Part shown: positions 15,781 through 30,639 of the stretch, piece by piece
Numbering within the stretch: the stretch's first letter is position 1
Layout of the letters: each line of letters starts with the position of its first letter
Virus record (IMG/VR): IMGVR_UViG_3300023174_000480
Coordinates: 1 to 30,639 of that record
Strand: one strand, 5' to 3'
DNA length: 30,639 bases
DNA from: a virus
The notes under the pieces: model-generated
What the model was told of the DNA's origin: nothing
The model's input: the letters and a program-made list of their open reading frames with translations, nothing else
Database searches by the model: none
Made by a program: the position numbers and the translations under genes

Positions 15781-16914
15781 ATGAGCAATTTCTACTGTGC
15801 GGCCCCCTGGCGCGGCTTACATATCAATCCCCGTGGTGACGTCAAAACCTGCTGTGCCGGTGACCCTAACATGCTGGGCAACCTCAACACTCACAGTATT
15901 GAAGAAATCTTGCATGGCCCTGTCATGCAAGAAATACGCCAGAGCATACAGCGTGGCAAACCACATGCCTACTGCTACAACTGTGTGCAGGCCGAACGCT
16001 ATGGTAGGAGTGAACGTGACTGGCACAACAATGTTAGTCCTGAGTTTGATCCTACCACTGCTGACAATCTTGAACATCGTCCTACCTTGATTGATGTGCG
16101 ATGGAATACCACATGCAATCTCTCTTGCAACTACTGTGCCGAAGCTTGTAGCTCAAAGTGGGCAGCACTCAAAGGAATTGCAACCAAATCCGGAGCCAGA
16201 CCCTACTACGAGCAGGTGTGTGATTATTTGGAACAACATCGTGACAACATACGTGAAGTGGCCTTGGTAGGCGGCGAGCCCTTGTTGTTGCCTGAAAACG
16301 ATCGACTGCTAGATGTGATACCTGAAGATTGCATAGTCACCTTGATCACCAATGTGGCCGTGGACTTCTCTACTAATCGCATTGTAAAAAAATTGTTAGC
16401 ACGTGACCGTGTGGGCTGGAGCCTCAGCTTTGACAACACAGGTGAAAGATTTGAGTATGTGCGACACGGTGCAGACTGGCCTCAATTGTTGCGTAATTTA
16501 GAAATCCTGCGCCCCTTGATGCAGAGTGGACAGCATTGGGGAGGTATACATGCAGTGTACAACATCTACAATGCCACACGCTTGATAGAACTCACTGAGT
16601 TTGCTAGATCACAAGGATTGACCATACACTGGCAGAGCCTGTATCAACCCGACTGCTTGGATCCACAACGACTGGGAGATCAAACTAAACAGCTGGCCTT
16701 GCAAGAAATAGACAGTTTGCTGGCGCTGGACATCTGCCTGGAGAGCGAGCGATTGTTTTTTCAAACAGTCAAGAGCAATATACCGGCTGCCAGAGACGAT
16801 CTGCGTACCGAGTTTGCCGTACACATTCAAGATATTGAAACACAGTATCACATAGATAAAGCAGGCCAGTTCAAACAACTGTGGCCAGAATTATGGAAAG
16901 CAACGAATGTTTGA
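15781..16914 (+). CDS. radical SAM protein 1 with N-terminal twitch-like Cys cluster
   Basis: A 377-aa protein. The radical SAM CxxxCxxC motif is C112-C116-C119 (TTCNLSCNYC), followed by VALVGGEPLL, the GGE motif that contacts SAM. The N-terminus FYCAAPWRGLHINPRGDVKT carries C6, with C24/C25 and C65/C68 (YCYNC) completing a likely auxiliary [4Fe-4S] site. This matches the N-terminal twitch-domain radical SAM type that I recall from marine phages. Its substrate is unknown. It has its own late promoter and overlaps the first SGNH gene by 8 nt. Acting on a peptide, sugar or lipid are all possible. Confidence 0.85.
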   Translation: MSNFYCAAPWRGLHINPRGDVKTCCAGDPNMLGNLNTHSIEEILHGPVMQEIRQSIQRGKPHAYCYNCVQAERYGRSERDWHNNVSPEFDPTTADNLEHRPTLIDVRWNTTCNLSCNYCAEACSSKWAALKGIATKSGARPYYEQVCDYLEQHRDNIREVALVGGEPLLLPENDRLLDVIPEDCIVTLITNVAVDFSTNRIVKKLLARDRVGWSLSFDNTGERFEYVRHGADWPQLLRNLEILRPLMQSGQHWGGIHAVYNIYNATRLIELTEFARSQGLTIHWQSLYQPDCLDPQRLGDQTKQLALQEIDSLLALDICLESERLFFQTVKSNIPAARDDLRTEFAVHIQDIETQYHIDKAGQFKQLWPELWKATNV

Positions 16915-17647
16915 TGACAACATCAAAGTACCATACCAAATTGACCTGGCAAGTAAGACGTTCAACTGGCTTGGAGAAGACAATGCAGAAAATTTTGAAC
17001 GGCACTGCAACGATCCAGCAAAACTTCAGCTGCTCGATCAGGCTGGCTGGCTGGACCAAAAAATCACTTACCAGTTCAACCGCCAGGGTTTTAGAAGTGC
17101 AGAGTTTGACAGCGTCGAGGATTATTTTGTATCAGCGGGATGTAGTTTTACTTTTGGCACTGCAATACAAACTCAGCAAAGATACACGGACATTGTGGCC
17201 AATCAACTTGGATTGACCTCCTATAATCTAGGCATACAAGGAGGCAGTGACGACACCAGTGTTAGACTGCTGCTGACTTGGTTAGACCAACTCAAGCCAA
17301 AGTTTGTGATTTACCAAAGTACATTTCCACAAAGATTTGAAATAATACACAATGACACAGCTATAATTTATGGCATAAATGCGGCTCTTGGTGGTCGTGT
17401 GCCAACAGATCATGGCGCATTATACAAACAGTTGTTGGCCACTCCGTCCAATGAACGAATCAGAGCCTGTAAAAATCAACTGGCAGTGCGCGAACTTTGT
17501 CGAAACAAAAACATAAAATTAATTGAAATAAGTTACATTGATTTTTTAAAAACTCACGATGCAAGTGCAAGAGATCTGCATCATCCAGGCGCTGGGGCCA
17601 ATCAATCAGTGGCACAAATGATCTTGAATGAATTGTCTCAGTCATGA
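16907..17647 (+). CDS. SGNH/GDSL-like hydrolase 1
   Basis: A 246-aa protein. GCSFTFG with S80 as nucleophile is SGNH block I, YNLGIQGGSDDTS supplies the following Gly/Asn region, and ARDLHHPGAG near the C-terminus supplies the Asp/His pair of block V. SGNH enzymes hydrolyse or transfer acyl esters on sugars and lipids. There is no signal peptide, so it acts in the cytoplasm. It overlaps the radical SAM gene by 8 nt and the next SGNH gene by ATGA, so the three are co-translated. FRSAEFD directly before the catalytic block is shared with its neighbour. Confidence 0.8.
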   Translation: MFDDNIKVPYQIDLASKTFNWLGEDNAENFERHCNDPAKLQLLDQAGWLDQKITYQFNRQGFRSAEFDSVEDYFVSAGCSFTFGTAIQTQQRYTDIVANQLGLTSYNLGIQGGSDDTSVRLLLTWLDQLKPKFVIYQSTFPQRFEIIHNDTAIIYGINAALGGRVPTDHGALYKQLLATPSNERIRACKNQLAVRELCRNKNIKLIEISYIDFLKTHDASARDLHHPGAGANQSVAQMILNELSQS

Positions 17648-18423
17648 ACACACCACCGTTACACTGCAATATTAATGATTTAGGAAACAGAACACTTGAT
17701 TGGTTTCCTAGTGATACCAATGAACGCCTTCAAGAGTCCATGCAAAGGCACAAATCTAAAAAATATATTCAAAGCAAGGGATGGGACCAACCAGGAGCCA
17801 TAACATATAAATTCAACAGTGATGCATTTAGGTCAGCAGAATTTGATCCTGCTGCTGATAATCTTGTGGCTCTGGGATGCAGTTTTACCATGGGTGTGGG
17901 ATTGCCAACACATTCGGTCTGGCCCAGTCTACTGGGGCATGCACTGAATCTATCGGTGTGCAATCTTGGCTGGGGCGGTTTTTCTGCAGATGCTTGCTTT
18001 AGGATGGCTGAGTATTGGATACCATATCTCAATCCAAAGTTGGTTGTTTTTTTAGTTCCAGACAGGTCACGATTAGAAATAATTGTTGATGAAAAAACTG
18101 GTAACACATTTGATCTCATGCCCGGCAATTTTGAACATTATTCGGATCTAAATGGATTTATAAAACATTGGTTTGGTCAAGATGAAAATTCTAGATTAAA
18201 TAACAAAAAAAATCAATTGGCGGTAGAAGCCATATGTCATCAACTAGGCATACCAATTTTATGCTATGAAGTTTCTCAAGAAATGATTGGATTGGCTCGT
18301 CTTGATCTTGCTAGAGATTTATCACATGCTGGCCCTGAAACTCATAAGAAATTAATTGAAAAAATTATAAATGATTACACCAAAAAATTTAGAAACAGTA
18401 CTGGTCAAAGCACCGCACCGTAA
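17644..18423 (+). CDS. SGNH/GDSL-like hydrolase 2, paralogue of hydrolase 1
   Basis: A 259-aa protein. FRSAEFD and GCSFTMG occur at the same residue numbers as in hydrolase 1 (both place S80 as nucleophile), followed by CNLGWGGFSADA and a C-terminal ARDLSHAG. KNQLAVEAICHQLGIPIL also matches KNQLAVRELCRNKNIKLI of hydrolase 1, so this is a tandem duplication with diverged substrate region. The 3' end is AT-rich and overlaps the gp17 start by 53 nt, an unusually long overlap at the edge of the accessory block. Two SGNH proteins side by side suggest different acceptors or an obligate pair. Confidence 0.8.
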   Translation: MNTPPLHCNINDLGNRTLDWFPSDTNERLQESMQRHKSKKYIQSKGWDQPGAITYKFNSDAFRSAEFDPAADNLVALGCSFTMGVGLPTHSVWPSLLGHALNLSVCNLGWGGFSADACFRMAEYWIPYLNPKLVVFLVPDRSRLEIIVDEKTGNTFDLMPGNFEHYSDLNGFIKHWFGQDENSRLNNKKNQLAVEAICHQLGIPILCYEVSQEMIGLARLDLARDLSHAGPETHKKLIEKIINDYTKKFRNSTGQSTAP

Positions 18424-19951
18424 AGAAGTTTATACTGAAGATGAACTGCTGGAGTTCGCAGCCTGTGCTGACCCTGTGACAGGGCCACTGTACTTCATGG
18501 ATAACTTTTTCTTTATCCAGCATCCCACACGCGGCAAGATGCTGTACCATCCATTTGAGTATCAAACTAGACTGATTGAAACCTATCACAACTACAGATA
18601 TTCGATATCCTTGATGCCCCGACAAACCGGCAAGTCAACATCGGCCGCTGGTTACCTATTGTGGTATGCAATGTTTGTGCCTGATTCAACTATCTTGGTT
18701 GCCGCACACAAATATACCGGTGCACAAGAGATCATGCAACGTATTAGATATGCGTATGAACTATGCCCCAATCACATACGTGCAGGTGCCACCAGTTACA
18801 ACAAGAACTCACTGGAGTTTGAAAACGGATCACGTATTGTGGCACAAACCACTACAGAAACAACAGGACGGGGTATGAGTATTTCACTCCTGTACGCTGA
18901 CGAGTTTGCGTTTGTACGACCCACCATTGCCAGAGAGTTTTGGACTTCTATTTCACCCACACTGGCCACCGGTGGTAAGGCTATTATTACCTCAACACCC
19001 AACTCAGACGAAGATCAATTTGCGTACTTGTGGAAAGGTGCCAACAAGACTCAGGACGAGCATGGCAATACCACCAAACTAGGCATCAATGGATTCCGTG
19101 CATTTAGAAGTAACTGGCGCGAGCATCCAGATCGTGATGAGCAATGGGGTCTTGAACAACTGGCACAACTAGGCGAAGATCGATTTCGCCGGGAAATGGA
19201 ATGTGAATTTGTTATCAATGATGAGACCTTGATCGCTCCTACCAAATTGTTGGACTTGGAGGGAATAGAACCCAACCGACGAACTGGGCAAGTACGCTGG
19301 TACAAAACTCCTGTCAAAGACAAAATATACATTGTGGCACTAGACCCCAGCCTGGGCACAGGTGGTGATCCTGCAGCCATACAGGTGTTTGAAGCAGATA
19401 CCACAGAACAAATAGCCGAGTGGCGACACAACAAAACAGACATTCCCACACAGGTCAAACTCCTGGCAGACATTGTGAATGAACTGTACGATGTCACCAA
19501 AGATGACAAAAAGATTTATTATTCTGTGGAAAACAACACTATTGGAGAAGCTGCTTTGATCTCAATAAACGAGTATGGAGAAGAGAACATCCGGGGTTAT
19601 TTTCTTAGCGACAACTCAGTCACAGGTACCACCGGGCGCAGATTCCGCAAAGGATTCAACACCACAAACCGAGCCAAACTCACTGCCTGTAGCAAGTTCA
19701 AAATCCTTGTGGAATCTGGGCGCATGAAGTTATATAGCAGACCCTTGATCTCTGAACTCAAAACCTTTGTTGCATCCGGGGGCAGTTACGCTGCCAAACC
19801 TGGCGAAACAGATGATCTTGTGATGAGTTCGTTGTTGGTTGTGCGCATGCTGATGATGTTGCAGACCTATCATGCAGAATTAGACACGCAAATGAAAGAT
19901 CACGGCGACAACATAATTGAACCAATGCCGTTCATATCAATGCTGCGCTAA
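18371..19951 (+). CDS. gp17: terminase large subunit gp17
   Basis: This 526-aa DNA-packaging motor has an N-terminal ATPase with Walker A MPRQTGKST and Walker B SLLYADEFAF, followed by the coupling segment ITSTPNSDEDQF. The C-terminal RNase H-like nuclease has IVALDPSLGTGGD and a late DD pair (GETDDLVMS). The N-terminal block DNFFFIQHPTRGKMLYHPFE is typical of T4-like cyanophage gp17. The ATG at 18371 lies inside the preceding SGNH gene with a 53-nt overlap and no clear ribosome site; a later internal start is possible. Its stop TAA is embedded in the next late promoter. Confidence 0.95.
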   Translation: MITPKNLETVLVKAPHRKEVYTEDELLEFAACADPVTGPLYFMDNFFFIQHPTRGKMLYHPFEYQTRLIETYHNYRYSISLMPRQTGKSTSAAGYLLWYAMFVPDSTILVAAHKYTGAQEIMQRIRYAYELCPNHIRAGATSYNKNSLEFENGSRIVAQTTTETTGRGMSISLLYADEFAFVRPTIAREFWTSISPTLATGGKAIITSTPNSDEDQFAYLWKGANKTQDEHGNTTKLGINGFRAFRSNWREHPDRDEQWGLEQLAQLGEDRFRREMECEFVINDETLIAPTKLLDLEGIEPNRRTGQVRWYKTPVKDKIYIVALDPSLGTGGDPAAIQVFEADTTEQIAEWRHNKTDIPTQVKLLADIVNELYDVTKDDKKIYYSVENNTIGEAALISINEYGEENIRGYFLSDNSVTGTTGRRFRKGFNTTNRAKLTACSKFKILVESGRMKLYSRPLISELKTFVASGGSYAAKPGETDDLVMSSLLVVRMLMMLQTYHAELDTQMKDHGDNIIEPMPFISMLR

Positions 19952-19954
19952 ATA
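19947..19954 (+). promoter_or_regulatory. T4-type late promoter (GCTAAATA)
   Basis: GCTAAATA includes the gp17 stop codon (19949-19951). Its last base is 8 nt before ATG 19962, so the predicted leader is about 2 nt. Confidence 0.55.
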
Positions 19955-19961
19955 CACAACT

Positions 19962-22196
19962 ATGACAATGGAAGCATTACCTCAAGATCTAGCCGATTTC
20001 TTGGTCACAAAGAACTTTGACCCGGAATATTTTGACGACAAAGGCCAGCCCGCTGAAGCAGGCGACGCCAAAACCATGAAATTTGACTATGTGGCCAGCA
20101 CCGGCAAAAACTATGGCACAGCAGTGATTGTGATTGCCGACAACGAGCTCAGCTTGTTCTATGGTGACAACCTGGGCAGGGGCATGGAGCCTGAAGACAA
20201 ACAAGAGTGGTTTGAATTCTTGGAACAACTCAGCAACAAAGCGGCCAGCCATTCAGCAACTTGGAGCCCCAAGGACATCAATCAACTCAAACACACACTT
20301 GCTGGCATTGCTGCCATCAAAGAGGGCTTGTTTGAGGGCTACTACGGCAATCGTCGAGTCAGCTACATGGGCGAGCAGACACATGCCAGATTGGTGATCA
20401 ATCACAATCGTCAGCTGGGAGAAAATGACAAACGTTTTCGCTATGTGGAAAGTTTGTTTATCGAAACAGCTGACCAAGAACGTTTCCGTTTGCCATTCAA
20501 AAGTCTGGCAGGCGGCCGAGCCATGCTGGAACATGTGCGCCAAGGCGGACGTCCATATGACATACGTGGCAACCACATCACAGAAATTGTGAGCGAAATG
20601 GCTGTGCTGAGCCGATTCAACCGTGCGCAACACAATCGTGTGTTTGAAGGTGTCACACAAGAGCTGGTGGAAAGCGCAAGACAATACTATCAAAACTTAC
20701 AAGAAACCGTCAAGCATCTTGGCAGCTCACGTGGCTATCAAGCATACTTTGAATCATGGGCTCCTGACCAAACAGGTGAAGCCGAAGCCCTGGTAGAAAA
20801 TCTACGCGACCTGTTTGTGGAACAAACCCTGGACGCTAGAATTGAAGCTGCCTTGCCCACACTGGCCAAGATACAACAACAAGGAAACAACATGAAAGAA
20901 GCGCAAATATTTGAAAACTGGATCAACAATCTCAGTGAAGGCACCTGGGCACTACCAGAAACTCCAGAGCAACAGGAAAAACTCAATCAGCTGATGAGTG
21001 CAGAACTCATTGTTGGTCCTGATGCTACCAATGCCACCGAGTTGTTGTACAGCATTGTGGGCGATGATGAGCTGTTCGACATCCTCAACGACCTGGCTGA
21101 CAAGAGTCAAGGCCGTGCCAACATTTGGGACGACTCAGATGTGCAACGTAGACTAGCCGAACTGGGCATTCAAACTCCTCAAAGTACTGAAGCAGAGCCT
21201 GCTGATGTTGACCAAGACACAGCACCGGCAATGAAAGAAGACTTTACTAGTTTTGGGGACAAACATACCGGTGCCTATAGAGATAATTTTGAACTTTGGA
21301 TCACAACAAAAGGTTTATACAACTACGAAGATGAACTGTTGGGGTATTTTGATAAGTTTGTTGACGGTGGCGGATTACCAAGCACAGCCGGTCAACAGTC
21401 AGTTGAAACCTGGAAGCAGAGAATGAAAAGAGACGGCGAAAGTGTTCAAAAAACCGACGATGTGGCGGAAGGCGACAACATGGCTACATTTGTAGAAAGC
21501 AATGAATTGAGTCGCATGCTCCGACATGCTGGCGTACCTGTGAAAGAAAGTGTGTTGACAGATAGTACAGGCAGCACCCTGGAACACATCAAAGACACGT
21601 TCCAGCGAGATGTCAAGGACTTTACCCAGTCTGGTGACATGAGCGATGCCTTGTATGATGCATTGTATGACTACTACTTTGATGACATGCCATATGGCAC
21701 AAAGAAAGCCAGAGATGGTGATCCTCATGAGTGGGTCAGCGATCGCTTTGCTCAAGACATTGGTCTGGACGAAGGTTGGAAAGGTGCATTGGCCGGCGGA
21801 CTTGCTGGTGCAGGACTAGGCAGTGTGGTACCAGGACTGGGCACATTGGCCGGTGGCATTGCTGGTGCTTATGCAGGACACAAAATTGGCGATCAAGGCC
21901 TGAGCGATCCAGACAAACAATGGAAATCACCAAGCCAGGAACCAAAACAACAAAAGCCAGTAAGCGAGTGTAACTATACCATGGAGGGCGAATATTGCCC
22001 AGAACACGGCTTGGCTGAATGTGGTCAAGCTGACGGTGGTGCAGTAGGCATGCCTTACAGCATGGGCGAAGGCACAGACGATCCAATCAACTCAAACTCA
22101 GCAATGACCGGCAGCTACTATGAAGGCAAAGAAACCGAAATACAAGAAGGCGATGCACTTCTGGCAAGAATAAAATCACTGGCTTTGCTCAGATGA
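19962..22196 (+). CDS. large virion-type protein with glycine zipper and Cys motif
   Basis: A 744-aa protein; ATG 19968 is an alternative start. No Shine-Dalgarno site is visible. A middle domain contains RVSYMGEQTHARLVINHNRQ, then RFRLPFKSLAGGRAMLEHV and RPYDIRGNHITEIVSE, which I recall from T4-like cyanophage proteins of unknown role. The C-terminal part has a glycine zipper (GALAGGLAGAGLGSVVPG, continuing to IAGAYAGHKIGD), a likely membrane-inserting hairpin, then CNYTMEGEYCPEHGLAEC. AAIKEGLFEG includes two possible (I/L)-x-E protease sites. A packaged or ejected protein that perturbs the host membrane is conceivable but unproven. Confidence 0.75.
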   Translation: MTMEALPQDLADFLVTKNFDPEYFDDKGQPAEAGDAKTMKFDYVASTGKNYGTAVIVIADNELSLFYGDNLGRGMEPEDKQEWFEFLEQLSNKAASHSATWSPKDINQLKHTLAGIAAIKEGLFEGYYGNRRVSYMGEQTHARLVINHNRQLGENDKRFRYVESLFIETADQERFRLPFKSLAGGRAMLEHVRQGGRPYDIRGNHITEIVSEMAVLSRFNRAQHNRVFEGVTQELVESARQYYQNLQETVKHLGSSRGYQAYFESWAPDQTGEAEALVENLRDLFVEQTLDARIEAALPTLAKIQQQGNNMKEAQIFENWINNLSEGTWALPETPEQQEKLNQLMSAELIVGPDATNATELLYSIVGDDELFDILNDLADKSQGRANIWDDSDVQRRLAELGIQTPQSTEAEPADVDQDTAPAMKEDFTSFGDKHTGAYRDNFELWITTKGLYNYEDELLGYFDKFVDGGGLPSTAGQQSVETWKQRMKRDGESVQKTDDVAEGDNMATFVESNELSRMLRHAGVPVKESVLTDSTGSTLEHIKDTFQRDVKDFTQSGDMSDALYDALYDYYFDDMPYGTKKARDGDPHEWVSDRFAQDIGLDEGWKGALAGGLAGAGLGSVVPGLGTLAGGIAGAYAGHKIGDQGLSDPDKQWKSPSQEPKQQKPVSECNYTMEGEYCPEHGLAECGQADGGAVGMPYSMGEGTDDPINSNSAMTGSYYEGKETEIQEGDALLARIKSLALLR

Positions 22197-22204
22197 TATA
22201 AATA
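22197..22204 (+). promoter_or_regulatory. candidate T4-type late promoter (TATAAATA) upstream of gp32
   Basis: Perfect TATAAATA directly after the preceding stop codon, 134 nt from the gp32 ATG. Transcripts from it would run into the hairpin at 22224-22254. Confidence 0.5.
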
Positions 22205-22207
22205 CAC

Positions 22208-22236
22208 TTGACACGTAGACAAGAAGCGCATATACT
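22208..22236 (+). promoter_or_regulatory. sigma70-type early promoter of gp32
   Basis: Consensus TTGACA (22208-22213), a 17-nt spacer and TATACT (22231-22236). It lies 102 nt before the gp32 ATG. The -10 sits inside the loop of the terminator hairpin. Confidence 0.85.
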
Positions 22237-22258
22237 ACTACAGTGTTTGCGCTTTTTT
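22224..22258 (+). terminator. intrinsic terminator overlapping the gp32 promoter
   Basis: AAGCGCA (22224-22230) and TGCGCTT (22248-22254) form a 7-bp stem with a 17-nt loop, continuing into a T run (22253-22258). It would end transcripts arriving from upstream. Transcripts from the embedded promoter lack the 5' arm. Confidence 0.6.
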
Positions 22259-22337
22259 GTTTGTAAGTCACAGGCAACCAAGATCTAAACATTTAGATAG
22301 GCAACATAACATAGGCAACTTATTAAGGAGAAAAACT

Positions 22338-23333
22338 ATGGCATCATTAGCAGAAATCAGAGCACGACTACAGGCAGCAGAAGGCAACAAAGGCGGAAGC
22401 CAAACAGGTGGAGACAATTCGATTTATCCACACTGGAACATGGAAGAAGGACAAAGTGCAACACTGCGATTCCTTCCCGACGCAAATACCAAAAACACAT
22501 TTTTCTGGCAAGAACGAGCAATGATTCGTTTGCCTTTCGCTGGCATCAAAGGCGAAGGGGATAGCAAGCAAGTGTACGTACAAGTACCTTGTGTGGAAAT
22601 GTGGGGAGACGCTTGCCCTATTCTGGCAGAAGTGCGCACCTGGTTCAAGGACAAGAGCCTTGAAGAAATGGGTCGTAAATACTGGAAGAAACGCTCATAC
22701 ATCTTCCAAGGCTTTGTGCGTGAGAATCCCTTGAGCGAAGACAAAACACCAGAAAATCCCATCCGACGTTTCATCATCGGACCACAGATTTTCACCATCA
22801 TTAAAGGCGCATTGATGGATCCTGAGCTGGAAGAATTGCCCACAGACATCTTGCGTGGCTTGGACTTCCGTGTTACTAAAACTGCCAAAGGTGGTTTTGC
22901 TGACTACAACACTTCCAAGTGGGCACGTAAAGAGTCTGCACTGACCGAAGCAGAACAGGCTGCCATTGAAACACACGGCCTGTATGACTTGAGCACATTC
23001 CTGCCCAAGAAGCCCGGCGATGTTGAACTGAAGGTGATCAAAGAGATGTTTGAAGCATCAGTTGATGGACAACCTTATGACACAGAACGTTGGGGTCAAT
23101 ACTTCCGTCCTGCTGGTGTTCAAGCACCTGGTGGTGCCGGAGCCGCACCGGTGGATGAGGACACACCTGCGCCAGCAGCCCGGCCTGCACTCAAAGTGGC
23201 AGCACCCACACCAGCCAGTGACTTTGACGAAGACGATGTTCCCTCAGCAGCCGCACCAGTGGCCAAACCTGCAGCCTCAGGACAAAATGCCCAGGACATC
23301 CTGGCCATGATCCGTAGCCGTCAACAGAAGTAA
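22338..23333 (+). CDS. gp32: single-stranded DNA-binding protein gp32
   Basis: A 331-aa protein that coats ssDNA during replication and recombination and works with UvsX and UvsY. The start at 22338 has AAGGAG (22325-22330) 7 nt upstream and gives the N-terminus MASLAEIRARLQAAEG. The core includes HWNMEEGQSATLRFLPD, FFWQERAMIRLPF, a CVEMWGDACPI cysteine segment and RRFIIGPQIFTI. The C-terminus is an Ala/Pro/Asp-rich linker with an acidic DFDEDDVPS and a short DILAMIRSRQQK tip, the usual protein-interaction tail. It is driven by a strong sigma70-like promoter, consistent with early expression. Its stop overlaps the next start in TAATG. Confidence 0.92.
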   Translation: MASLAEIRARLQAAEGNKGGSQTGGDNSIYPHWNMEEGQSATLRFLPDANTKNTFFWQERAMIRLPFAGIKGEGDSKQVYVQVPCVEMWGDACPILAEVRTWFKDKSLEEMGRKYWKKRSYIFQGFVRENPLSEDKTPENPIRRFIIGPQIFTIIKGALMDPELEELPTDILRGLDFRVTKTAKGGFADYNTSKWARKESALTEAEQAAIETHGLYDLSTFLPKKPGDVELKVIKEMFEASVDGQPYDTERWGQYFRPAGVQAPGGAGAAPVDEDTPAPAARPALKVAAPTPASDFDEDDVPSAAAPVAKPAASGQNAQDILAMIRSRQQK

Positions 23334-23959
23334 TGCGTACAGCTCTGAACACAGAGCTGTTTCCAGATTGTGAAGTGGTAGAGATGCCACTTCACAATCA
23401 ATGGATTTACTCAATTCAAAAAAACGGAAGCAGTAGTTTAAGAATTCAACAGTCAAGAGACAATCTTGCAATGTTTGTCAATGAAAAAATAAACGATCTT
23501 GACTTTGTGGATGTGTACATTAGAGAGCCCCGAGACAGATACATAAATGGTATCAATACCTATTTGCAATTTCTCAAACGCGATCATCCTGAATTGGATT
23601 ACAAAACTGCGTTTTGGTTCGCTCGACGTTACAAATTTTTAAACACACATTACTTGCCACAATTTTATTGGATAGCAAATCTCAGCAGATATTTGCATAG
23701 TGATGCAAAAATACGTTTTAGAAATTTTCAAGACTTTGGCAAAGTAGCTCGTATCAATGCCAAGCCCACTGGAGTAACGGCACCTAGTGAAGATTTTATT
23801 GAAACACTGTTTAAAGACGATGTGAATATTGAATTTTGGTTGTTTCTTGATCAAATTTTATGGGACCTGTGCGGTCAAGAATTATCTTGGCAACAACTGT
23901 TAAATCATTACCAGGATTGTCATCCTAATATTATAAAAAATGTATTGCCCAAGACTTGA
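23333..23959 (+). CDS. sulfotransferase-like protein (PAPS-type)
   Basis: A 208-aa protein. IYSIQKNGSSSL (residues 25-36) matches the 5'-phosphosulfate-binding loop of sulfotransferases, and VYIREPRDRYINGINTYL (residues 61-78) matches the 3'-phosphate-binding motif (R-x-P-x-x-R). Such enzymes move sulfate from PAPS to a sugar, lipid or tyrosine. It is shorter than most, so the acceptor domain is reduced. It is coupled to gp32 through TAATG and its end overlaps the radical SAM 2 start by 20 nt. The region is visibly AT-richer than gp32, suggesting later acquisition. The acceptor is unknown. Confidence 0.72.
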   Translation: MRTALNTELFPDCEVVEMPLHNQWIYSIQKNGSSSLRIQQSRDNLAMFVNEKINDLDFVDVYIREPRDRYINGINTYLQFLKRDHPELDYKTAFWFARRYKFLNTHYLPQFYWIANLSRYLHSDAKIRFRNFQDFGKVARINAKPTGVTAPSEDFIETLFKDDVNIEFWLFLDQILWDLCGQELSWQQLLNHYQDCHPNIIKNVLPKT

Positions 23960-24908
23960 TCATTTTGTAAGATTTAACCCCAATGGTACAGTGAGCCGTT
24001 GTGGCCATATGACTCGAGCGCCCGAATTTTCTTCATTGGAAGAAATGGAACAAAGTCCGTGGTTAAAAAATACAAAATTAAGTTTTCACAAAGGTATCTG
24101 GCCTAGTGAATGCAGTAGATGTAAGCAAACAGAATCAATCAACAGTACCAGCATCAGAATCAATGCCGTGGACTTTGATCAAAAACAAACCAGGCAAGAC
24201 TATTTGACTGTGGGCGGTGTGTTGGACAATGTGTGCAACAGTGCATGTCAAACTTGTAATGAAAACCTGAGTACAAAGATTGGCAGTTTGAAGTCTCGAG
24301 ACTATATCCGCATTGACAACAGTACTCGCTTCTGGTCATTGCCTCTAGATCGTGTGGTACACCTGGATATCAACGGTGGTGAACCCAGTGCCAGCAAAAA
24401 TTATCGGCACATACTTAAAAATATTCCAGCCAATGTTACCAGCGTTAGAATCAACACCAACTGTGCATTGGTAATGTCCGAAGTTAAAGATTTAGTCGAT
24501 CGTGGAATAAATGTCACGGTCACTGTGAGCTTGGATGGCATTGGTCGCAAACATGATTATGTTCGTTGGCCCATAAGTTGGCGTCAATTTGAACACAACT
24601 TACTAACATACCAACGCATGAATGTGGATTTAAATACCTGGACCACCGTGAGTGCGCTAAACATTGGAGACTTAAAGAATATTTTTTCTTACGTACAACA
24701 GCATGATTTAAAAAATTCTTGGGCATTGTTAGAAAATCCCAAAGTGCTCAATGTAAAATACAGTAATCATTTGACAAGGACTGCTGATGTACCAGACGAG
24801 TTAAAGTCCGTTGTGGCCTCGGCAGAGGATAACACTGTTGAACTGCAATTATTCACACTGGAACAAGATCAGTTACGTGGTATTAAATTCGGGGAGTACT
24901 ACCAATGA
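23940..24908 (+). CDS. radical SAM protein 2, twitch-like N-terminus
   Basis: A 322-aa protein. CxxxCxxC is C99-C103-C106 (NVCNSACQTC), with HLDINGGEPSASKNY as the GGE motif. An N-terminal cluster C3, C21, C58 and C61 has the same layout as in radical SAM 1 and probably binds an auxiliary [4Fe-4S] cluster. The mid-barrel contains TVSLDGIGRKHDYVRWP, close to VRHG or IRHG stretches in the other copies. It overlaps the sulfotransferase-like gene by 20 nt and the SDR gene by ATGA. It is the most diverged of the four: G-x-x-E/K motifs after the Cys triad differ (CNENLSTKIGSL). Confidence 0.82.
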   Translation: MYCPRLDHFVRFNPNGTVSRCGHMTRAPEFSSLEEMEQSPWLKNTKLSFHKGIWPSECSRCKQTESINSTSIRINAVDFDQKQTRQDYLTVGGVLDNVCNSACQTCNENLSTKIGSLKSRDYIRIDNSTRFWSLPLDRVVHLDINGGEPSASKNYRHILKNIPANVTSVRINTNCALVMSEVKDLVDRGINVTVTVSLDGIGRKHDYVRWPISWRQFEHNLLTYQRMNVDLNTWTTVSALNIGDLKNIFSYVQQHDLKNSWALLENPKVLNVKYSNHLTRTADVPDELKSVVASAEDNTVELQLFTLEQDQLRGIKFGEYYQ

Positions 24909-25480
24909 AAATAGCCATAACCGGACACACAGCCGGAATAGGACAGGCATTTGCAAATATTTTACAAGGCCGCGGTCATGACATTGTGGGTTTGAGCAAA
25001 CGAAACGGTGACAACATTAGAAATATTTCTAAGATTGTAGAAAAAATTACCCCGTGTGATTTGTTCATAAACAATGCACAGGCCGGATATGCACAAACTG
25101 AATTGTTGTATGCAGTATGGGAAGCCTGGCAAGACCAACCGGGCAAACATATTTGGTGTATAGGTACAATGATGACCATGATACCAATTGCACCACCGGT
25201 ACCAGGACAAAGCGACATGGCCATGGTCATGTATAGGAATCAAAAAAAAACATTGGATGATGCGGTGGCTCAGTTGAGATATAAAAAACATTTACCAGTG
25301 ATCACCATGATTAGACCAGGGATTGTGGCCACACAGCCAGGGCAAACAACCGAATGGCCAAATTGTGATGTTGATGTTTGGACCAACACAATAATTACAA
25401 CCATGTTGTTGGCCAACGAACAAGGCATGAGATTCAATGAGTTGTCATTGGGTTCGGCCAAAACCACGCTGCCATTATAA
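24905..25480 (+). CDS. short-chain dehydrogenase/reductase (SDR), compact
   Basis: A 191-aa NAD(P)-dependent oxidoreductase. The cofactor motif TGHTAGIG is at the N-terminus (TGxxxGIG), NNAQAG replaces the usual NNAG, and MYRNQKK contains the catalytic YxxxK. The position of the catalytic serine (WCIGTMMTM) shows Thr or Gly rather than Ser. IRPGIVATQPG is the usual PG motif. It is shorter than the typical 250 aa. It overlaps radical SAM 2 by ATGA and radical SAM 3 by TAATG, so all three are co-translated. It probably oxidises or reduces a sugar or polyol intermediate. Confidence 0.82.
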   Translation: MKIAITGHTAGIGQAFANILQGRGHDIVGLSKRNGDNIRNISKIVEKITPCDLFINNAQAGYAQTELLYAVWEAWQDQPGKHIWCIGTMMTMIPIAPPVPGQSDMAMVMYRNQKKTLDDAVAQLRYKKHLPVITMIRPGIVATQPGQTTEWPNCDVDVWTNTIITTMLLANEQGMRFNELSLGSAKTTLPL

Positions 25481-26619
25481 TGAACAGCAAAGAGTACTTG
25501 ACCAATCGTGCATTTTGTCCAGTACCGTGGACCAGCATCATGTATAATTTTGATGGCTCAGTTAAGAATTGTATTCGCAGTGCTGCACCAATTGGCAACG
25601 TCAGAGACTCAGACATAGAACAAATACTTGGCAACGATCATCTAATCAAAGCAGACATGCAGACTGGAAAAAAGTTTGCTCGATGCGATCCCTGCTACAG
25701 CCTAGAGCAAGAAAAAACTAATTTCAACATCATAAGTGATCGTGTGTTTTATCTTAAGGAATTGCGGGACGTTGATTCTGCCTTGTATGACACCATGAAT
25801 TTTGCATTACACACTGTGGACATACGTTGGAGTAATCTTTGCAACTTTGCCTGTGTGTACTGCAATCCAGAATTCAGTAGCAAGTGGGCCAGCGAGCATG
25901 GCGTTGTTATGTTGACGCCTGTGGATCAACAAGTTGAAAAATTTAAACAATATATTTTTCGACATGCGCCACAGTTGAAGCATGTGTATTTGGCCGGCGG
26001 TGAACCCTTGTTGATGAAAGAGAATTTGGAATTTTTAACACTGCTGAAAAAGGTAAATCCGGGCGTAAATTTACGTGTCAATACCAATCTAAGCAAAATG
26101 GATACTAGAATTTTTGAATTGATTTGTGAGTTTAAAAATGTGCATTGGATTGTGAGTGTAGAGACCATGGAAGCCGAATACGAATATATACGACATGGCG
26201 GAGTGTGGCAAGATTTTGTAGATAACCTACAAATCATCAAACAATTGGATCACAAGATATCATTCAACATGTTGCATTTTTTGTTGAATTATCGCAGTAT
26301 TTTTGATTGTGTGGACTACTTGTCCCATCGAGGATTTCACAACAATAGTTTTGTAATTGGTGCGCTGACAGGACCGGCATACCTAAATATTAGACATTTG
26401 CCAGACAGTGTGTTAAACTCAGTGAAGAAGATTTTAGCAGATCGTATTTCGGAGCATCCAGGATATTTGTTAGAAAATGGATACCAAAACATGATAAAAC
26501 ATCTGGACCAACCGATAGAAAAAGATTTGACCGGGTCCTTTGACAAACTAGCATTGATGGATCAACGGCGTAAATTAGACAGTAGAGCAATTTTTAAAGA
26601 TTTATACAAGGAAGAGTAA
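25480..26619 (+). CDS. radical SAM protein 3, twitch-like N-terminus
   Basis: A 379-aa protein. CxxxCxxC is C121-C125-C128 (NLCNFACVYC), and VYLAGGEPLLMKEN is the GGE motif. The N-terminus FCPVPWTSIMYNFDGSVKNC carries C13 and C31, with C69 and C72 (ARCDPC) completing the auxiliary cluster. It is closest to radical SAM 1: both have the FC-x-x-PW start, a D-x-R-W before the Cys triad, SSKWA after it, and IRHGG or VRHGA before a W-x-x-x-L/F segment. It is coupled to the SDR through TAATG and ends 1 nt before UvsX, whose ribosome site lies in its 3' end. Confidence 0.85.
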   Translation: MNSKEYLTNRAFCPVPWTSIMYNFDGSVKNCIRSAAPIGNVRDSDIEQILGNDHLIKADMQTGKKFARCDPCYSLEQEKTNFNIISDRVFYLKELRDVDSALYDTMNFALHTVDIRWSNLCNFACVYCNPEFSSKWASEHGVVMLTPVDQQVEKFKQYIFRHAPQLKHVYLAGGEPLLMKENLEFLTLLKKVNPGVNLRVNTNLSKMDTRIFELICEFKNVHWIVSVETMEAEYEYIRHGGVWQDFVDNLQIIKQLDHKISFNMLHFLLNYRSIFDCVDYLSHRGFHNNSFVIGALTGPAYLNIRHLPDSVLNSVKKILADRISEHPGYLLENGYQNMIKHLDQPIEKDLTGSFDKLALMDQRRKLDSRAIFKDLYKEE

Positions 26620-26620
26620 T

Positions 26621-27679
26621 ATGGGAAAACCATTTGACGTAAGCAAGTTCCGCAAGGAAATCACAAAGAGTATCGACGGACTCAGCATCGGATTTAACGA
26701 TCCCACAGACTGGATTTCAACAGGCAACTATGCCTTGAACTACCTGATCTCAGGGGATTTCCATCGTGGCATTCCCCTGGGCAAGGTCACAGTGTTTGCT
26801 GGCGATTCTGGTGCAGGCAAAAGTTACATCTGTTCAGGCAACATTGTGAAGAACGCACAAGAGCAAGGTATCTTTGTGGTGTTGATTGACAGTGAAAATG
26901 CACTGGATGAAGACTGGCTCAAGGCACTGGGTGTGGACACAAGCGAAAGCAAACTGTTAAAACTTAGCATGGCCATGATTGATGATGTGGCCAAAACCAT
27001 CTCCACATTCATGAGTGATTACAAGGCCTTGCCCGAAGGCGAACGTCCCAAGGTCATGTTTGTGATTGACTCATTGGGCATGTTGTTGACTCCCACAGAC
27101 GTCAACCAATTTGATGCAGGCGAAATGAAGGGTGACTTGGGTCGTAAACCCAAAGCTCTCACAGCCTTGGTTCGTAATTGTGTGAATATGTTTGGTAGTT
27201 ACAATGTGGGCTTGGTTTGTACCAACCACACATATGCCAGCCAAGACATGTTTGACCCTGATGACAAGATCTCCGGCGGTCAAGGTTTTATCTATGCCAG
27301 CTCAATTGTTGTGGCCATGAAGAAGATGAAGCTGAAAGAAGACGAAGACGGCAACAAAGTGAGTGACGTAAACGGTATTCGTGCAGGTTGCAAAGTCATG
27401 AAAACACGCTATGCCAAACCTTTTGAAGGCGTGCAAGTGAAAATTCCCTACACCACAGGCATGAGTCCTTACTCGGGCTTGACTGATCTGATTGAGAAAA
27501 AAGAGCTGCTCAAGCGTGAAGGCAACAGCTTGGTGTTTACCACAAGTGATGGTGAGATCATCAAGAAGTTCCGTAAGGCATGGGAAAAGAACGATGATGG
27601 CTGCCTGGACAAAGTCATGGTGGACTTCAAGAATATCAAAACTGAGGTAAGTACAACCGACACTGTGGAGGAAGAATAA
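26621..27679 (+). CDS. uvsX: UvsX recombinase (RecA-like)
   Basis: A 352-aa strand-exchange protein for recombination-dependent replication and repair. FAGDSGAGKSYI is the Walker A loop, VMFVIDSLGM is Walker B, and DKISGGQGFIYASSIVV lies in the loop region that contacts DNA. The N-terminal segment GFNDPTDWISTGNYALNYL is typical of T4-like UvsX. AGGAAGAG lies a few bases upstream, inside the end of the radical SAM gene. The acidic C-terminus (TTDTVEEE) resembles that of T4 UvsX. Its stop overlaps the acidic small gene in TAATG. Confidence 0.95.
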   Translation: MGKPFDVSKFRKEITKSIDGLSIGFNDPTDWISTGNYALNYLISGDFHRGIPLGKVTVFAGDSGAGKSYICSGNIVKNAQEQGIFVVLIDSENALDEDWLKALGVDTSESKLLKLSMAMIDDVAKTISTFMSDYKALPEGERPKVMFVIDSLGMLLTPTDVNQFDAGEMKGDLGRKPKALTALVRNCVNMFGSYNVGLVCTNHTYASQDMFDPDDKISGGQGFIYASSIVVAMKKMKLKEDEDGNKVSDVNGIRAGCKVMKTRYAKPFEGVQVKIPYTTGMSPYSGLTDLIEKKELLKREGNSLVFTTSDGEIIKKFRKAWEKNDDGCLDKVMVDFKNIKTEVSTTDTVEEE

Positions 27680-27939
27680 TGTCAGCAGAAGTAGCAAGCG
27701 AAATTTGGGGTGAGTTAAAACGATACGTCAACGTGGTAGATCGCATGGAGGCTGCCGAAAGCATTGTGGCCATTCTAATTGATCACGATCACAGTGTCGA
27801 CGACATTCGAGATGCCTTCAAAGGCGATTCAGATATCAAGAAAGCCTTGACTGCATACCTGGACAATGACAAAGACTATGAAGAAGAAGAAGAAGAATTT
27901 GAGGACGAGGACGACTACAACAAAGAAGATGACTACTAA
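27679..27939 (+). CDS. small acidic protein downstream of UvsX
   Basis: An 86-aa protein with a helical N-terminal part (EIWGELKRYVNVVDRMEAAE, then DIRDAFKGDSDIKKAL) and a C-terminal tail of about 25 residues that is nearly all Glu, Asp and Tyr. The tail includes a GAA microsatellite (five repeats near 27880-27895). It is coupled on both sides through TAATG. Acidic tails like this mimic DNA and occur on gp32 and UvsX partners, so a regulator of recombination or replication is plausible. I recall a similar small gene after uvsX in cyanophages but not its function. Confidence 0.75.
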   Translation: MSAEVASEIWGELKRYVNVVDRMEAAESIVAILIDHDHSVDDIRDAFKGDSDIKKALTAYLDNDKDYEEEEEEFEDEDDYNKEDDY

Positions 27940-29120
27940 TGTCTGAGGACAGAGACTATTATTGCTCTTATAAATTTAAGTATCTAAAGGTTGATTTGGT
28001 ATCTAACGCCACATACAACTGTCATGCTGCCAAACAACATGCCATTGACTTTGAATGGCTGGCCAACAATCGAGGAAATTTATTCAATACTGAAATTAAT
28101 GTTGCTGAACGGCAAATGATGTTGGCCAATCAGCGCAATTCCAGTTGCGAAGAAAATTGTTGGCCTCTTGAAGATAAAGGCGCAGTCAGTCCAAGGATGT
28201 GGCAAAACGGTAAAATAAAAACACATACAGATGTTCACACACAACCAGAAATATTAGAAATAAAATTGAATGACAACTGCAATTTATCTTGCTCGTATTG
28301 CTGTAAAGAATACAGCAGTGCCTGGCGCAGAGATTTAGCTGTCAACGGCGACTACAAAATTAACACCAATGATGCACGATATCAACTGACCAGTCGCGAC
28401 AAGATAATGATCAAAATCAGTCAGAATGAAGTTAAAAATACCAAACAATTTCAGCAGTTGATGGATGAAATAAAAAGTTTTGCGCCAGGACTGAAAGAGA
28501 TAGTGATCACTGGTGGCGAACCTTTGTTAGACAATCAGTTGTTTGATGTGCTAGATGCAGTATCAAACAGTTCAGCAGTGATCAACATTTATACTGGGCT
28601 GGGAGTGGATGTCAAACGATTTCAGCGCATGTTAGACAAGATAAAACAAATTCCCACAGCAATGATATCTGTCAGTGCAGAATGTACCAACAAGTTTTAT
28701 GAGTTCAATCGCTACGGAAATCTTTGGACTGAGTTCATTAACAAGATTGAATTATTGCAAAAATCCAATATTGAATTTAGATTTAGCACAGTCATATCTA
28801 ACCTCACCGTGGTCGGACTAGCAGATTTTATCAAGCATTTTATCGATCATCGTATAGGACTGGTGTTTGTTAACCAGCCCAGCATGATGGCCCCGTATGT
28901 GTTGGATGTTGACAGTAAAAAAATGATCTTGCAAGATATCCAATCGTTACCAGAACACTATCGAACACAAATTGCACAGTCTATACAGGCTGATCCCAGC
29001 AAAACACAACAACAGCAAATGTCAGAATTTTTAAAAGAGTACGTGACTCGTAGAAATCTTGATCTAAGCATTTATCCAAAAAGTTTTTTAGAATGGCTGG
29101 ACATACATGTGGTACAGTAA
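27939..29120 (+). CDS. radical SAM protein 4, diverged twitch-like N-terminus
   Basis: A 393-aa protein. CxxxCxxC is C114-C118-C121 (DNCNLSCSYC, followed by another Cys), and IVITGGEPLLDN is the GGE motif. The N-terminal cysteines C9, C28, C70 and C74 (SSCEENC) fit the auxiliary-cluster layout of the other copies but with different spacing, and the FC-x-x-PW motif is absent. It sits alone between the acidic partner of UvsX and the UvsY-like gene, coupled through TAATG upstream and a 14-nt overlap downstream. Its substrate is unknown; its sequence suggests a subfamily distinct from copies 1 and 3. Confidence 0.82.
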   Translation: MSEDRDYYCSYKFKYLKVDLVSNATYNCHAAKQHAIDFEWLANNRGNLFNTEINVAERQMMLANQRNSSCEENCWPLEDKGAVSPRMWQNGKIKTHTDVHTQPEILEIKLNDNCNLSCSYCCKEYSSAWRRDLAVNGDYKINTNDARYQLTSRDKIMIKISQNEVKNTKQFQQLMDEIKSFAPGLKEIVITGGEPLLDNQLFDVLDAVSNSSAVINIYTGLGVDVKRFQRMLDKIKQIPTAMISVSAECTNKFYEFNRYGNLWTEFINKIELLQKSNIEFRFSTVISNLTVVGLADFIKHFIDHRIGLVFVNQPSMMAPYVLDVDSKKMILQDIQSLPEHYRTQIAQSIQADPSKTQQQQMSEFLKEYVTRRNLDLSIYPKSFLEWLDIHVVQ

Positions 29121-29559
29121 AGTTGTAGCAGATCTTGGCAATATACCTGACTTCATTGCACACTTTGAAAATGAACTGCAAGACGCCAAACGTGACTGTA
29201 AAATTGGCGGCTTGGTAGAAAAGAACATCACCGCCTTGCCAGGCATAACTGAACATAGATTCAATCAGTTACAAGAGATTGAAGCTGTGTTGAACTACCT
29301 CAACATACAACTGCGCAAAATACGGCGCCGACATTTCCAAAAGTATCTAGAAGGATATGCCCGTGCGTTGACCAGCCGTGATGCTGAAAAGTACGTGGAC
29401 GGTGAAGAAGAAGTCGTGGACTTTGAAACCATCATCAATGAAGTGGCACTGCTACGCAATCGTTGGCTGGGTATCATGAAAGGCCTGGACACCAAGCAGT
29501 GGCAAATGGGCCACGTGGTGCGACTGCGCACAGCAGGCATGGAAGATATCACGGTATAG
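29107..29559 (+). CDS. uvsY: UvsY-like recombination mediator
   Basis: A 150-aa protein beginning MWYSKVVADLGNIPDFI, a strongly conserved start in T4-like cyanophages. The C-terminal part (IINEVALLRNRWLGIMKGL, then KQWQMGHVVRLRTAGMED) aligns by eye with the end of T4 UvsY. UvsY loads UvsX onto gp32-coated ssDNA. UvsX lies 1.4 kb upstream on the same strand. The middle is helical and basic (LRKIRRRHFQKYLEGY). It overlaps radical SAM 4 by 14 nt. The UvsY call is from memory of the T4 sequence and should be tested. Confidence 0.65.
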   Translation: MWYSKVVADLGNIPDFIAHFENELQDAKRDCKIGGLVEKNITALPGITEHRFNQLQEIEAVLNYLNIQLRKIRRRHFQKYLEGYARALTSRDAEKYVDGEEEVVDFETIINEVALLRNRWLGIMKGLDTKQWQMGHVVRLRTAGMEDITV

Positions 29560-29560
29560 C

Positions 29561-29674
29561 ATGACCGATCAAGAACGCTGGCAAAGAGATCTAGCAGAAA
29601 TGGAATTCTTCCTGCTGATATTGTTCATTGAGGCCTGGACAGCTTTTTGGTGGTGCGTGAGTCATGTTGGTTAA
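29561..29674 (+). CDS. 37-aa membrane-like peptide
   Basis: A complete short frame starting MTDQERWQRDLAEME, 1 nt after the preceding stop, and ending at TAA 29672-29674, which lies inside the next late promoter. Residues 16-33 (FFLLILFIEAWTAFWWCV) form one hydrophobic segment, so the peptide would be a single-pass membrane protein with a charged N-terminus. The nearest SD-like site, GGAAG at 29541, is 15 nt away, so translation may depend on coupling. Function unknown; small phage membrane peptides often act in lysis or exclusion. Confidence 0.55.
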   Translation: MTDQERWQRDLAEMEFFLLILFIEAWTAFWWCVSHVG

Positions 29675-29677
29675 ATA
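29670..29677 (+). promoter_or_regulatory. T4-type late promoter (GTTAAATA)
   Basis: GTTAAATA includes the stop of the 37-aa frame. Its last base is 6 nt from ATG 29683, so the predicted +1 is the start codon itself. There is no Shine-Dalgarno site. Confidence 0.6.
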
Positions 29678-29682
29678 TCTGC

Positions 29683-30444
29683 ATGAAAATTATACTTGTA
29701 ACCGGGGGCTTTGACCCTGTCCATTCTGGACATATTGCCTATTTCAAAGCAGCACGAACATTGGGCGACATGCTCATTGTTGGCCTAAACAGCGACGAGT
29801 GGCTGGAACGCAAAAAGGGTCGGGCATTCATGCCCTGGAACGAACGCCTGTGCATCATCAACAATTTGAGCATGGTTGATGAAGTTTACACCTTTGATGA
29901 TTCAGACGGTTCTGCGTGTCATTTTATAGAGCAGATCCGTGCGCACTATCCCAATGATGAACTGGTGTTTGCCAATGGCGGAGACAGAACGTCTGACAAC
30001 ATTCCTGAAATGCGTATGTTAGACGTTGAGTTTGCATTTGGCGTAGGCGGAGATGACAAAAAGAACAGCTCTAGTTGGATATTGCAAGAGTGGAAAACAC
30101 CCCGGACTGAACGTGCCTGGGGATACTATCGTGTGCTGCACGAAGTAGGCGCTAATACCAAACTCAAAGAACTCACAGTCATGCCCAAGACCTGCTTGAG
30201 CATGCAACGTCATGACAGTCGTGCAGAATTTTGGTTTGTGGCCGAAGGCGAGGCCACAGTGTACACCCTGGATGAAGCATCAACAGATCAAGAAATCAAG
30301 TGTCAACTAACTGTGCATGAAAACACATTTATTGCTGTAAATGAATGGCATCAGTTGTGCAACGAAACTGATCAACCGCTAAAGTTGATTGAGATTCAAT
30401 ACGGTGAACGCTGTGTTGAAGAAGATATCGAACGTAGAACATGA
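29683..30444 (+). CDS. nucleotidyltransferase-cupin fusion
   Basis: A 253-aa two-domain protein. Residues 1 to about 130 form a cytidylyltransferase of the HxGH class (GGFDPVHSGHIAYFKAARTL, with HSGH at 14-17), like the RfaE/HldE C-terminal or glycerol-3-phosphate type; WNERLCIINNL follows. Residues from about 140 form a cupin like the C-terminal domain of type II mannose-6-phosphate isomerases (RAWGYYRVLHEVG, KELTVMPKTCLSMQRH, AEFWFVAEGEATV). The usual second cupin histidine is replaced by Ser (HDS). The protein probably makes or modifies an NDP-sugar or polyol. An ATGA overlap couples it to the glycosyltransferase. Confidence 0.82.
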   Translation: MKIILVTGGFDPVHSGHIAYFKAARTLGDMLIVGLNSDEWLERKKGRAFMPWNERLCIINNLSMVDEVYTFDDSDGSACHFIEQIRAHYPNDELVFANGGDRTSDNIPEMRMLDVEFAFGVGGDDKKNSSSWILQEWKTPRTERAWGYYRVLHEVGANTKLKELTVMPKTCLSMQRHDSRAEFWFVAEGEATVYTLDEASTDQEIKCQLTVHENTFIAVNEWHQLCNETDQPLKLIEIQYGERCVEEDIERRT

Positions 30445-30639
30445 CACCTATTCCTATCTTTGTGGGCTACGATCCCAGAGAAGCAGTGGCCTATCATGTG
30501 TGCGTGAACAGTATTATCAGACATGCCAGTCAGCCAGTGGCCATTGTGCCTGTGGCCTTGAACTTGTTTCAAGACTATGATGAAACACACACTGACGGCA
30601 GCAATCATTTTATCTACACACGGTTCCTTGTGCCACACT
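30441..30639 (+). CDS. glycosyltransferase, GT8-like, N-terminal fragment
   Basis: The frame is open from ATG 30441 to the window edge (66 codons). The N-terminus MTPIPIFVGYDPREAVAYHV, then CVNSIIRHAS, and later NHFIYTRFLVP, resemble phage and bacterial GT8-type sugar transferases, in which FVGYDPRE begins the nucleotide-binding fold and Y-x-RF-x-VP is a conserved helix. Coupling to the nucleotidyltransferase-cupin gene by ATGA suggests the two act in sequence. The catalytic DxD motif lies beyond the window, so activity cannot be judged here. Confidence 0.7.
   Translation, partial: MTPIPIFVGYDPREAVAYHVCVNSIIRHASQPVAIVPVALNLFQDYDETHTDGSNHFIYTRFLVPH

Follow-up and report, generated by a model that had tools for sequence, protein, structure and literature searches.

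A sulfotransferase-like and radical SAM gene cassette inherited as a unit in uncultured phages

The four genes between gp32 and uvsX

The stretch of DNA analysed here (the window; 30,639 nucleotides, positions 1 to 30,639 of IMG/VR record IMGVR_UViG_3300023174_000480) is a 30.6 kb fragment from an uncultured virus record. It carries four adjacent genes (23333-26619), which encode, in this order, a sulfotransferase-like protein (ST), a radical S-adenosylmethionine (SAM) protein (rSAM2), a short protein resembling short-chain dehydrogenases/reductases (SDR) and a second radical SAM protein (rSAM3), and which are inherited as a unit, being gained or lost almost only whole. This cassette is bordered upstream by a gp32-like gene for a single-strand DNA-binding protein (22335..23333; PHROG 1192, E 1e-65) and downstream by a uvsX-like recombinase gene (26621..27679; PHROG 97, E 3e-66); all features described here lie on the plus strand. 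The original prediction for this DNA had assigned the four genes, together with two more radical SAM genes, two SGNH hydrolase genes, a nucleotidyltransferase-cupin gene and a glycosyltransferase gene, to one ten-gene pathway, and had placed the radical SAM genes among gp17, gp32, uvsX and uvsY. PHROG matches to these four phage genes, and also to tail sheath and tail tube, confirmed that placement, and the open reading frames (ORFs) named in the prediction were intact at their coordinates, except for the last one, which is truncated by the contig end.

The first gene of the cassette (ST; 23333..23959) encodes a 208-amino-acid protein with the two motifs of sulfotransferases that use 3'-phosphoadenosine-5'-phosphosulfate (PAPS), namely KNGSSS (5'-phosphosulfate loop) and RxPxxR (3'-phosphate motif), and the residues K30, N31, R64 and R69 were invariant in 20 relatives. 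The structure model of ST (predicted local distance difference test, pLDDT, 89) retrieved PAPS sulfotransferases in all of its top 28 structural rows, with glycan sulfotransferases ranking first and the best alignment to 3-O-sulfotransferase 5 (Z 5.4, root-mean-square deviation 4.4, 144 residues). One relative matched the Sulfotransfer_2 profile weakly and below the cut-off (E 0.015), and a search of PDB sequences with the ST profile returned nothing meaningful.

The second and fourth genes encode the short rSAM2 (23940..24908; 322 amino acids) and rSAM3 (25480..26619; 379 amino acids). Both belong, with rSAM1 (15781..16914) upstream of gp17 and rSAM4 (27939..29120) upstream of uvsY, to the radical SAM proteins with an N-terminal twitch domain (N-twitch), as described by the NCBIfam model NF033640 (N_Twi_rSAM, twitch domain-containing radical SAM protein; curated cut-off 170 bits). 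The predicted twitch character was thus recovered by profile for rSAM1 (197 bits), rSAM3 (239 bits) and rSAM4 (174 bits), while rSAM2 stayed below the cut-off (141 bits). NF033640 defines a sequence subfamily whose name states no reaction, and it is silent on ST, SDR and the cassette. The core CxxxCxxC was invariant in all four proteins, and reading of the sequences located the N-terminal cysteines at C6, C24 or C25, C65 and C68 in rSAM1, C3, C21, C58 and C61 in rSAM2, C13, C31, C69 and C72 in rSAM3, and C9, C28, C70 and C74 in rSAM4, where CxxxC replaces the CxxC of the other three. The earlier description of four radical SAM proteins, each with a core motif and four N-terminal cysteines, was therefore upheld, and their SAM and iron-sulfur (Fe-S) site residues appear intact as judged by sequence. 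All seven core and twitch cysteines, and also a GGE motif, were conserved in the relatives of rSAM2; those of rSAM3 conserved the same core and twitch cysteines and GGE, with C13 present in at least 90% of rows.

The structure model of rSAM3 (pLDDT 80, with a poor N-terminal part) matched BlsE with a Z score of 11.1, and the matches to BlsE, SkfB, NifB, MoaA, anSME and DesII fell within about 1.5 Z of one another, which confirms the radical SAM fold without singling out a substrate class. SuiB, AprD4 and viperins were likewise among the matches. An assignment as viperin (pVip) was rejected, the NCBIfam viperin model giving at most 36 bits against a cut-off of 180, and so was a defence system, PADLOC having returned only generic similarity to the viperin core (no more than 40 bits, confined to the shared core).

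The third gene (SDR; 24905..25480) encodes a protein of 191 amino acids, in which the cofactor motif TGxxxGIG and the catalytic pair YxxxK were invariant across 23 relatives. Matches to family profiles were weak and below the cut-off for both adh_short (E 0.005) and Epimerase (E 0.001).

The stop codon of gp32 overlaps the start of ST as TAATG, and the genes from ST onwards overlap or abut up to uvsX. The best promoter-like site lies upstream of gp32, within a candidate promoter region (22197..22236) composed of TATAAATA at 22197-22204 and TTGACA-17-TATACT at 22208-22236, both of them consensus matches only. Because of the TAATG overlap, the tight gene spacing and the position of the promoter-like site and TATAAATA, the arrangement fits a putative single operon of gp32, the cassette and uvsX.

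Joint gain and loss of the cassette

The scan of IMG/VR with rSAM3 returned 276 related stretches, of which 80 loci were kept, and most of these showed the order ST, rSAM2, SDR, rSAM3 between gp32 and uvsX; scans based on rSAM2 and SDR agreed with this picture. Where cassette genes served as queries, 115 of 117 non-redundant closed gp32-uvsX intervals held the full set. Since counts anchored on cassette genes are biased by the anchor, the scan was repeated with uvsX as the anchor. This sample comprised 136 closed intervals, with none of the four genes in 123, all four in 12 and two in a single one (locus L327, with ST and rSAM2), so that 12 of the 13 occupied intervals carried the full set. 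One contig was counted twice in this sample, and the duplicate was removed for the tree, a quick build from 136 uvsX rows including the window, on which independent pairs were taken along supported branches. The cassette changed state 12 times on this tree, and ST and rSAM3 were concordant in all ten independent pairs in which both differed (sign test, p ~0.002); SDR and rSAM2 gave the same result.

In 14 long contigs (40-203 kb) whose gp32-uvsX site is empty there were no SDR, one weak partial match to ST without a full-length copy, and rSAM2 matches at paralogue level only (at most 75 bits, compared to about 400-560 bits for orthologues); these contigs are fragments, and the absences hold only for their assembled parts. 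When six contigs with the cassette were compared to three without it, only the ST and SDR families were shared by all six and missing from all three; rSAM2 and rSAM3 do not appear on this list because paralogues exist. The same comparison revealed no extra partner gene tracking the cassette among ORFs of at least 60 amino acids. All four genes are under purifying selection, with median ratios of nonsynonymous to synonymous substitution rates of 0.10 for rSAM3, 0.14 for rSAM2, 0.21 for ST and 0.21 for SDR, computed from unsaturated pairs, which were limited in number.

The genes adjoin one another at a constant position, and T4-like phages commonly have hypervariable islands, so that the four genes might share no pathway and travel together through physical linkage alone. 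The relocated copies speak against this explanation. In four loci (L163, L166, L179 and L181) the order is SDR-rSAM3-ST-rSAM2 and neither gp32 nor uvsX adjoins the set; this order also occurs between gp32 and uvsX in L214. Since the set stays together when reordered and at other positions, linkage alone explains it poorly and, with partial sets very rare and purifying selection on every gene, we regard it as improbable. From the almost exclusive gain and loss of the whole set it follows that the four genes very probably form a small biosynthetic pathway.

The few partial sets, which are L327 (ST-rSAM2), L211 (SDR-rSAM3) and L081 (rSAM3 alone), suggest that the cassette comprises two sub-modules. 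An optional fifth gene between rSAM2 and SDR was matched in 44 of the 115 full intervals and has no copy in the window; its product weakly resembles aspartyl/asparaginyl beta-hydroxylase (for example at 2679-3149 of L013, and in 21 other loci).

Searches of cultured phages and of bacterial genomes did not find the cassette, with the exception of one phage-like contig of a metagenome-assembled genome (MAG). In cultured phages, tblastn with rSAM3, rSAM2 and one ST relative yielded only distant, generic radical SAM matches, in Vibrio phages; ST had no match. The bacterial genomes yielded no relative of rSAM3 and a single match to rSAM2, on contig NZJL01000003.1 (L215) of a Porticoccaceae MAG, which carries SDR-ST-rSAM2 and other radical SAM genes, with no rSAM3 adjoining SDR. 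This contig is probably phage, because it begins with a gp41/DnaB-like helicase gene such as the one adjoining the cassette of L163 and L166. Among 229 genomes of the class of this MAG, NF033640 was above its cut-off in two, the Porticoccaceae MAG and one other with an uninformative neighbourhood.

Optional neighbours and the phage backbone

The remaining genes of the ten-gene list were present in the window as predicted. Downstream of rSAM1 lie SGNH1 (16907..17647; GCSFT and DxxH motifs) and SGNH2 (17644..18423; a serine and a DxxH motif), the latter overlapping the start of gp17. Both were recognised by reading of the sequence and by alignment with relatives; they gave no family match above the cut-off and one sub-threshold match, of SGNH1 to DUF6473. 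The nucleotidyltransferase-cupin gene (NT-cupin; 29680..30444) combines CTP_transf_like and MannoseP_isomer domains. It is followed by the start of a GT8-like glycosyltransferase gene (30441..30639), truncated by the contig end and identified through its full-length relative in the 212 kb contig G001, which passes Pfam Glyco_transf_8 (PF01501); in G001, glycosyltransferase-type genes lie downstream. The predicted gene content was accordingly borne out, for ST by its motifs and fold model, for SDR by its motifs and for the SGNH pair by sequence reading. Next to an SGNH-like gene, G001 also encodes a PIG-L type de-N-acetylase (PF02585; L226, 6418-6927), with relatives in contigs G013 and G015.

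Assignment of all ten genes to one pathway is, by contrast, very unlikely. The independent occurrence in related genomes that would speak against it was found for rSAM4, which occurs in 20 of the 112 intervals that lack the full cassette and shows no correlation with it on the uvsX tree (median p 1), for NT-cupin, which occurs in 43 of the 75 loci of this kind with room for it (informative pairs on the tree were too few), and for rSAM1 and SGNH, relatives of which occur in loci with and without the cassette; the four cassette genes, nearly inseparable, are the part of the proposal that stands. In addition, matches to N-twitch radical SAM proteins number about 10 to 15 per large contig, which makes several pathways or targets likely. 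In favour of the wider pathway, the relocated cassettes of L163, L166, L179 and L181 have genes of the rSAM1-like and SGNH types on their flanks, and because both types adjoin the cassette in these four contigs, a looser link to it is possible. The genes for rSAM1, SGNH, rSAM4, NT-cupin and the glycosyltransferase are best described as optional neighbours, some of them perhaps tailoring related products.

Two large contigs each have five N-twitch radical SAM genes arrayed close together, G013 (at 139-147 kb; 9047-16694 of L227, which is G013:130001-150000) and G014 (at 13.8-23 kb; L230, which is G014:8001-28000); the array stretch of G013 contained no match to ST, SDR or rSAM2. In the window, a short acidic ORF without a Pfam match (27679-27939), kept in most relatives, separates uvsX from rSAM4, and a gene for a DNA/RNA non-specific endonuclease (PF01223; 14962-15765) with a signal-peptide-like N-terminus lies immediately upstream of rSAM1. 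Searches for tRNAs and Rfam families found none.

The window derives from a T4-like phage, probably of the jumbo type. The nearest relatives of its terminase are those of jumbo phages such as PA5oct (54%), whose backbone from terminase to a UvsX-like recombinase resembles that of the window and includes no gene with a radical SAM annotation. As many as 12 radical SAM genes per genome have been reported for T4-like marine viruses, accompanied by IscU or A-type carrier genes (PMC5332604). G001 is similar, with about 10 radical SAM genes and with phage-borne genes for IscU (NifU_N, E 3e-52; L220, 7623-8012) and an A-type carrier (L223, 18681-18998), and Fe-S assembly genes (SufE, FeS_assembly_P) occur near some relocated cassettes. 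As fixed partners of the cassette such genes were rejected, since IscU and the A-type carrier are also present in contigs without it. The report on marine viruses (PMC5332604) covers gene counts and Fe-S assembly, and the co-inherited ST-rSAM2-SDR-rSAM3 unit is not described there. A study of pelagimyophages mentions radical SAM "gene cassettes" in a hypervariable region (PMC7029224); radical SAM genes are thus gained as cassettes in aquatic T4-like phages, as here, although the mention names no gene make-up and the cassette may be a different one. Sulfotransferases are likewise known from aquatic phages, those infecting OM43, in which phage sulfotransferase function was called unclear (PMC10580990); these carry the Sulfotransfer_3 domain, to which ST has no significant match. 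No description of the four-gene cassette was found in the open-licence papers searched.

A proposed sulfonation pathway and its meaning

We propose, tentatively and at slightly less than an even chance, that ST, rSAM2, SDR and rSAM3 constitute a self-contained phage pathway in which a small acceptor, most probably a sugar, is oxidised, reduced and sulfonated. The cassette would be transcribed together with gp32 and uvsX. The N-terminal twitch domains of rSAM2 and rSAM3 would each contain an auxiliary Fe-S cluster, and the two enzymes would use radical chemistry to oxidise, dehydrate or epimerise a host-supplied acceptor. SDR would then reduce or epimerise the resulting carbonyl, and ST would transfer a sulfonate group from host PAPS. 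The acceptor would most likely be a sugar or sugar nucleotide and would become part of a host-surface or virion glycan. The order of steps, the sugar acceptor, the product and the benefit to the phage are what we infer. PAPS made by the phage was rejected as a source; PAPS would come from the host, because an APS-kinase-like match was found in just one of ten contigs and was partial (a small P-loop kinase, G001:179663-180061).

The sugar-acting enzymes BlsE, DesII and AprD4 among the matches of the rSAM3 model count for a sugar acceptor. The first rank of glycan sulfotransferases for the ST model and the glycosyltransferase-type genes of the 212 kb relative also favour the proposal. The radical SAM enzyme AprD4 works with a reductase in aminoglycoside synthesis, a pair that resembles the cassette in joining an auxiliary-cluster radical SAM enzyme to an NAD(P)H-type reductase. 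However, the auxiliary domain of AprD4 is C-terminal and its antibiotic pathway has no sulfotransferase, so that the resemblance is a lead only.

Several observations weigh against the proposed pathway. The folds of peptide-, nucleotide- and sugar-acting enzymes are separated by only ~1.5 Z in the rSAM3 comparison, no glycan genes were tied to the cassette across the six contigs with it and the three without, and the rare partial sets show that the four genes do not always occur together. The ST of the window matched no sulfotransferase family profile, the best Z score of its model is low and Foldseek gave an E value of 0.4 at best, and it has Asn in place of the Ser found in the 3'-phosphate motif of most relatives (RxPxxRxxS). 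Because of the low Z and this substitution, ST, judged from motifs and model, is likely rather than proven to be a PAPS-dependent sulfotransferase.

Peptide and nucleotide acceptors are also possible. The radical SAM proteins might act on side chains, either of a ribosomally synthesized and post-translationally modified peptide (RiPP-like) or of a host or phage protein, with SDR and ST finishing or sulfating the product. The peptide- or protein-acting SkfB, SuiB and anSME are among the best matches of the rSAM3 model and the hydroxylase-like resemblance of the optional fifth gene points the same way, but the overlapping or abutting cassette genes of the window leave no precursor peptide gene between them and no further family tracks the cassette (a distant precursor, or an ORF shorter than 60 amino acids, could escape), which makes this alternative unlikely. 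A modified nucleotide or DNA base, serving in phage DNA or acting against polymerases of the host or of competitors, is less likely still: the cassette sits inside the gp32-uvsX replication operon and the nucleotide-acting viperins and MoaA are among the model matches, but relocated cassettes lie away from both genes, viperin family scores are far under the cut-off, and we know of no sulfonated DNA base.

Of the ten genes first grouped loosely, the analysis singles out four for joint cloning and testing, and a natural test set exists in those relatives that have the cassette at this site and those in which the same site lacks it. Phages carry single metabolic genes and genes that modify glycans. 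We give about an even chance to the broader view that the cassette is an undescribed phage pathway for a new sulfonated metabolite or glycan used in infection, present in many uncultured aquatic T4-like phages and exchanged between them as a unit. If true, this would give a first function to N-twitch radical SAM proteins.

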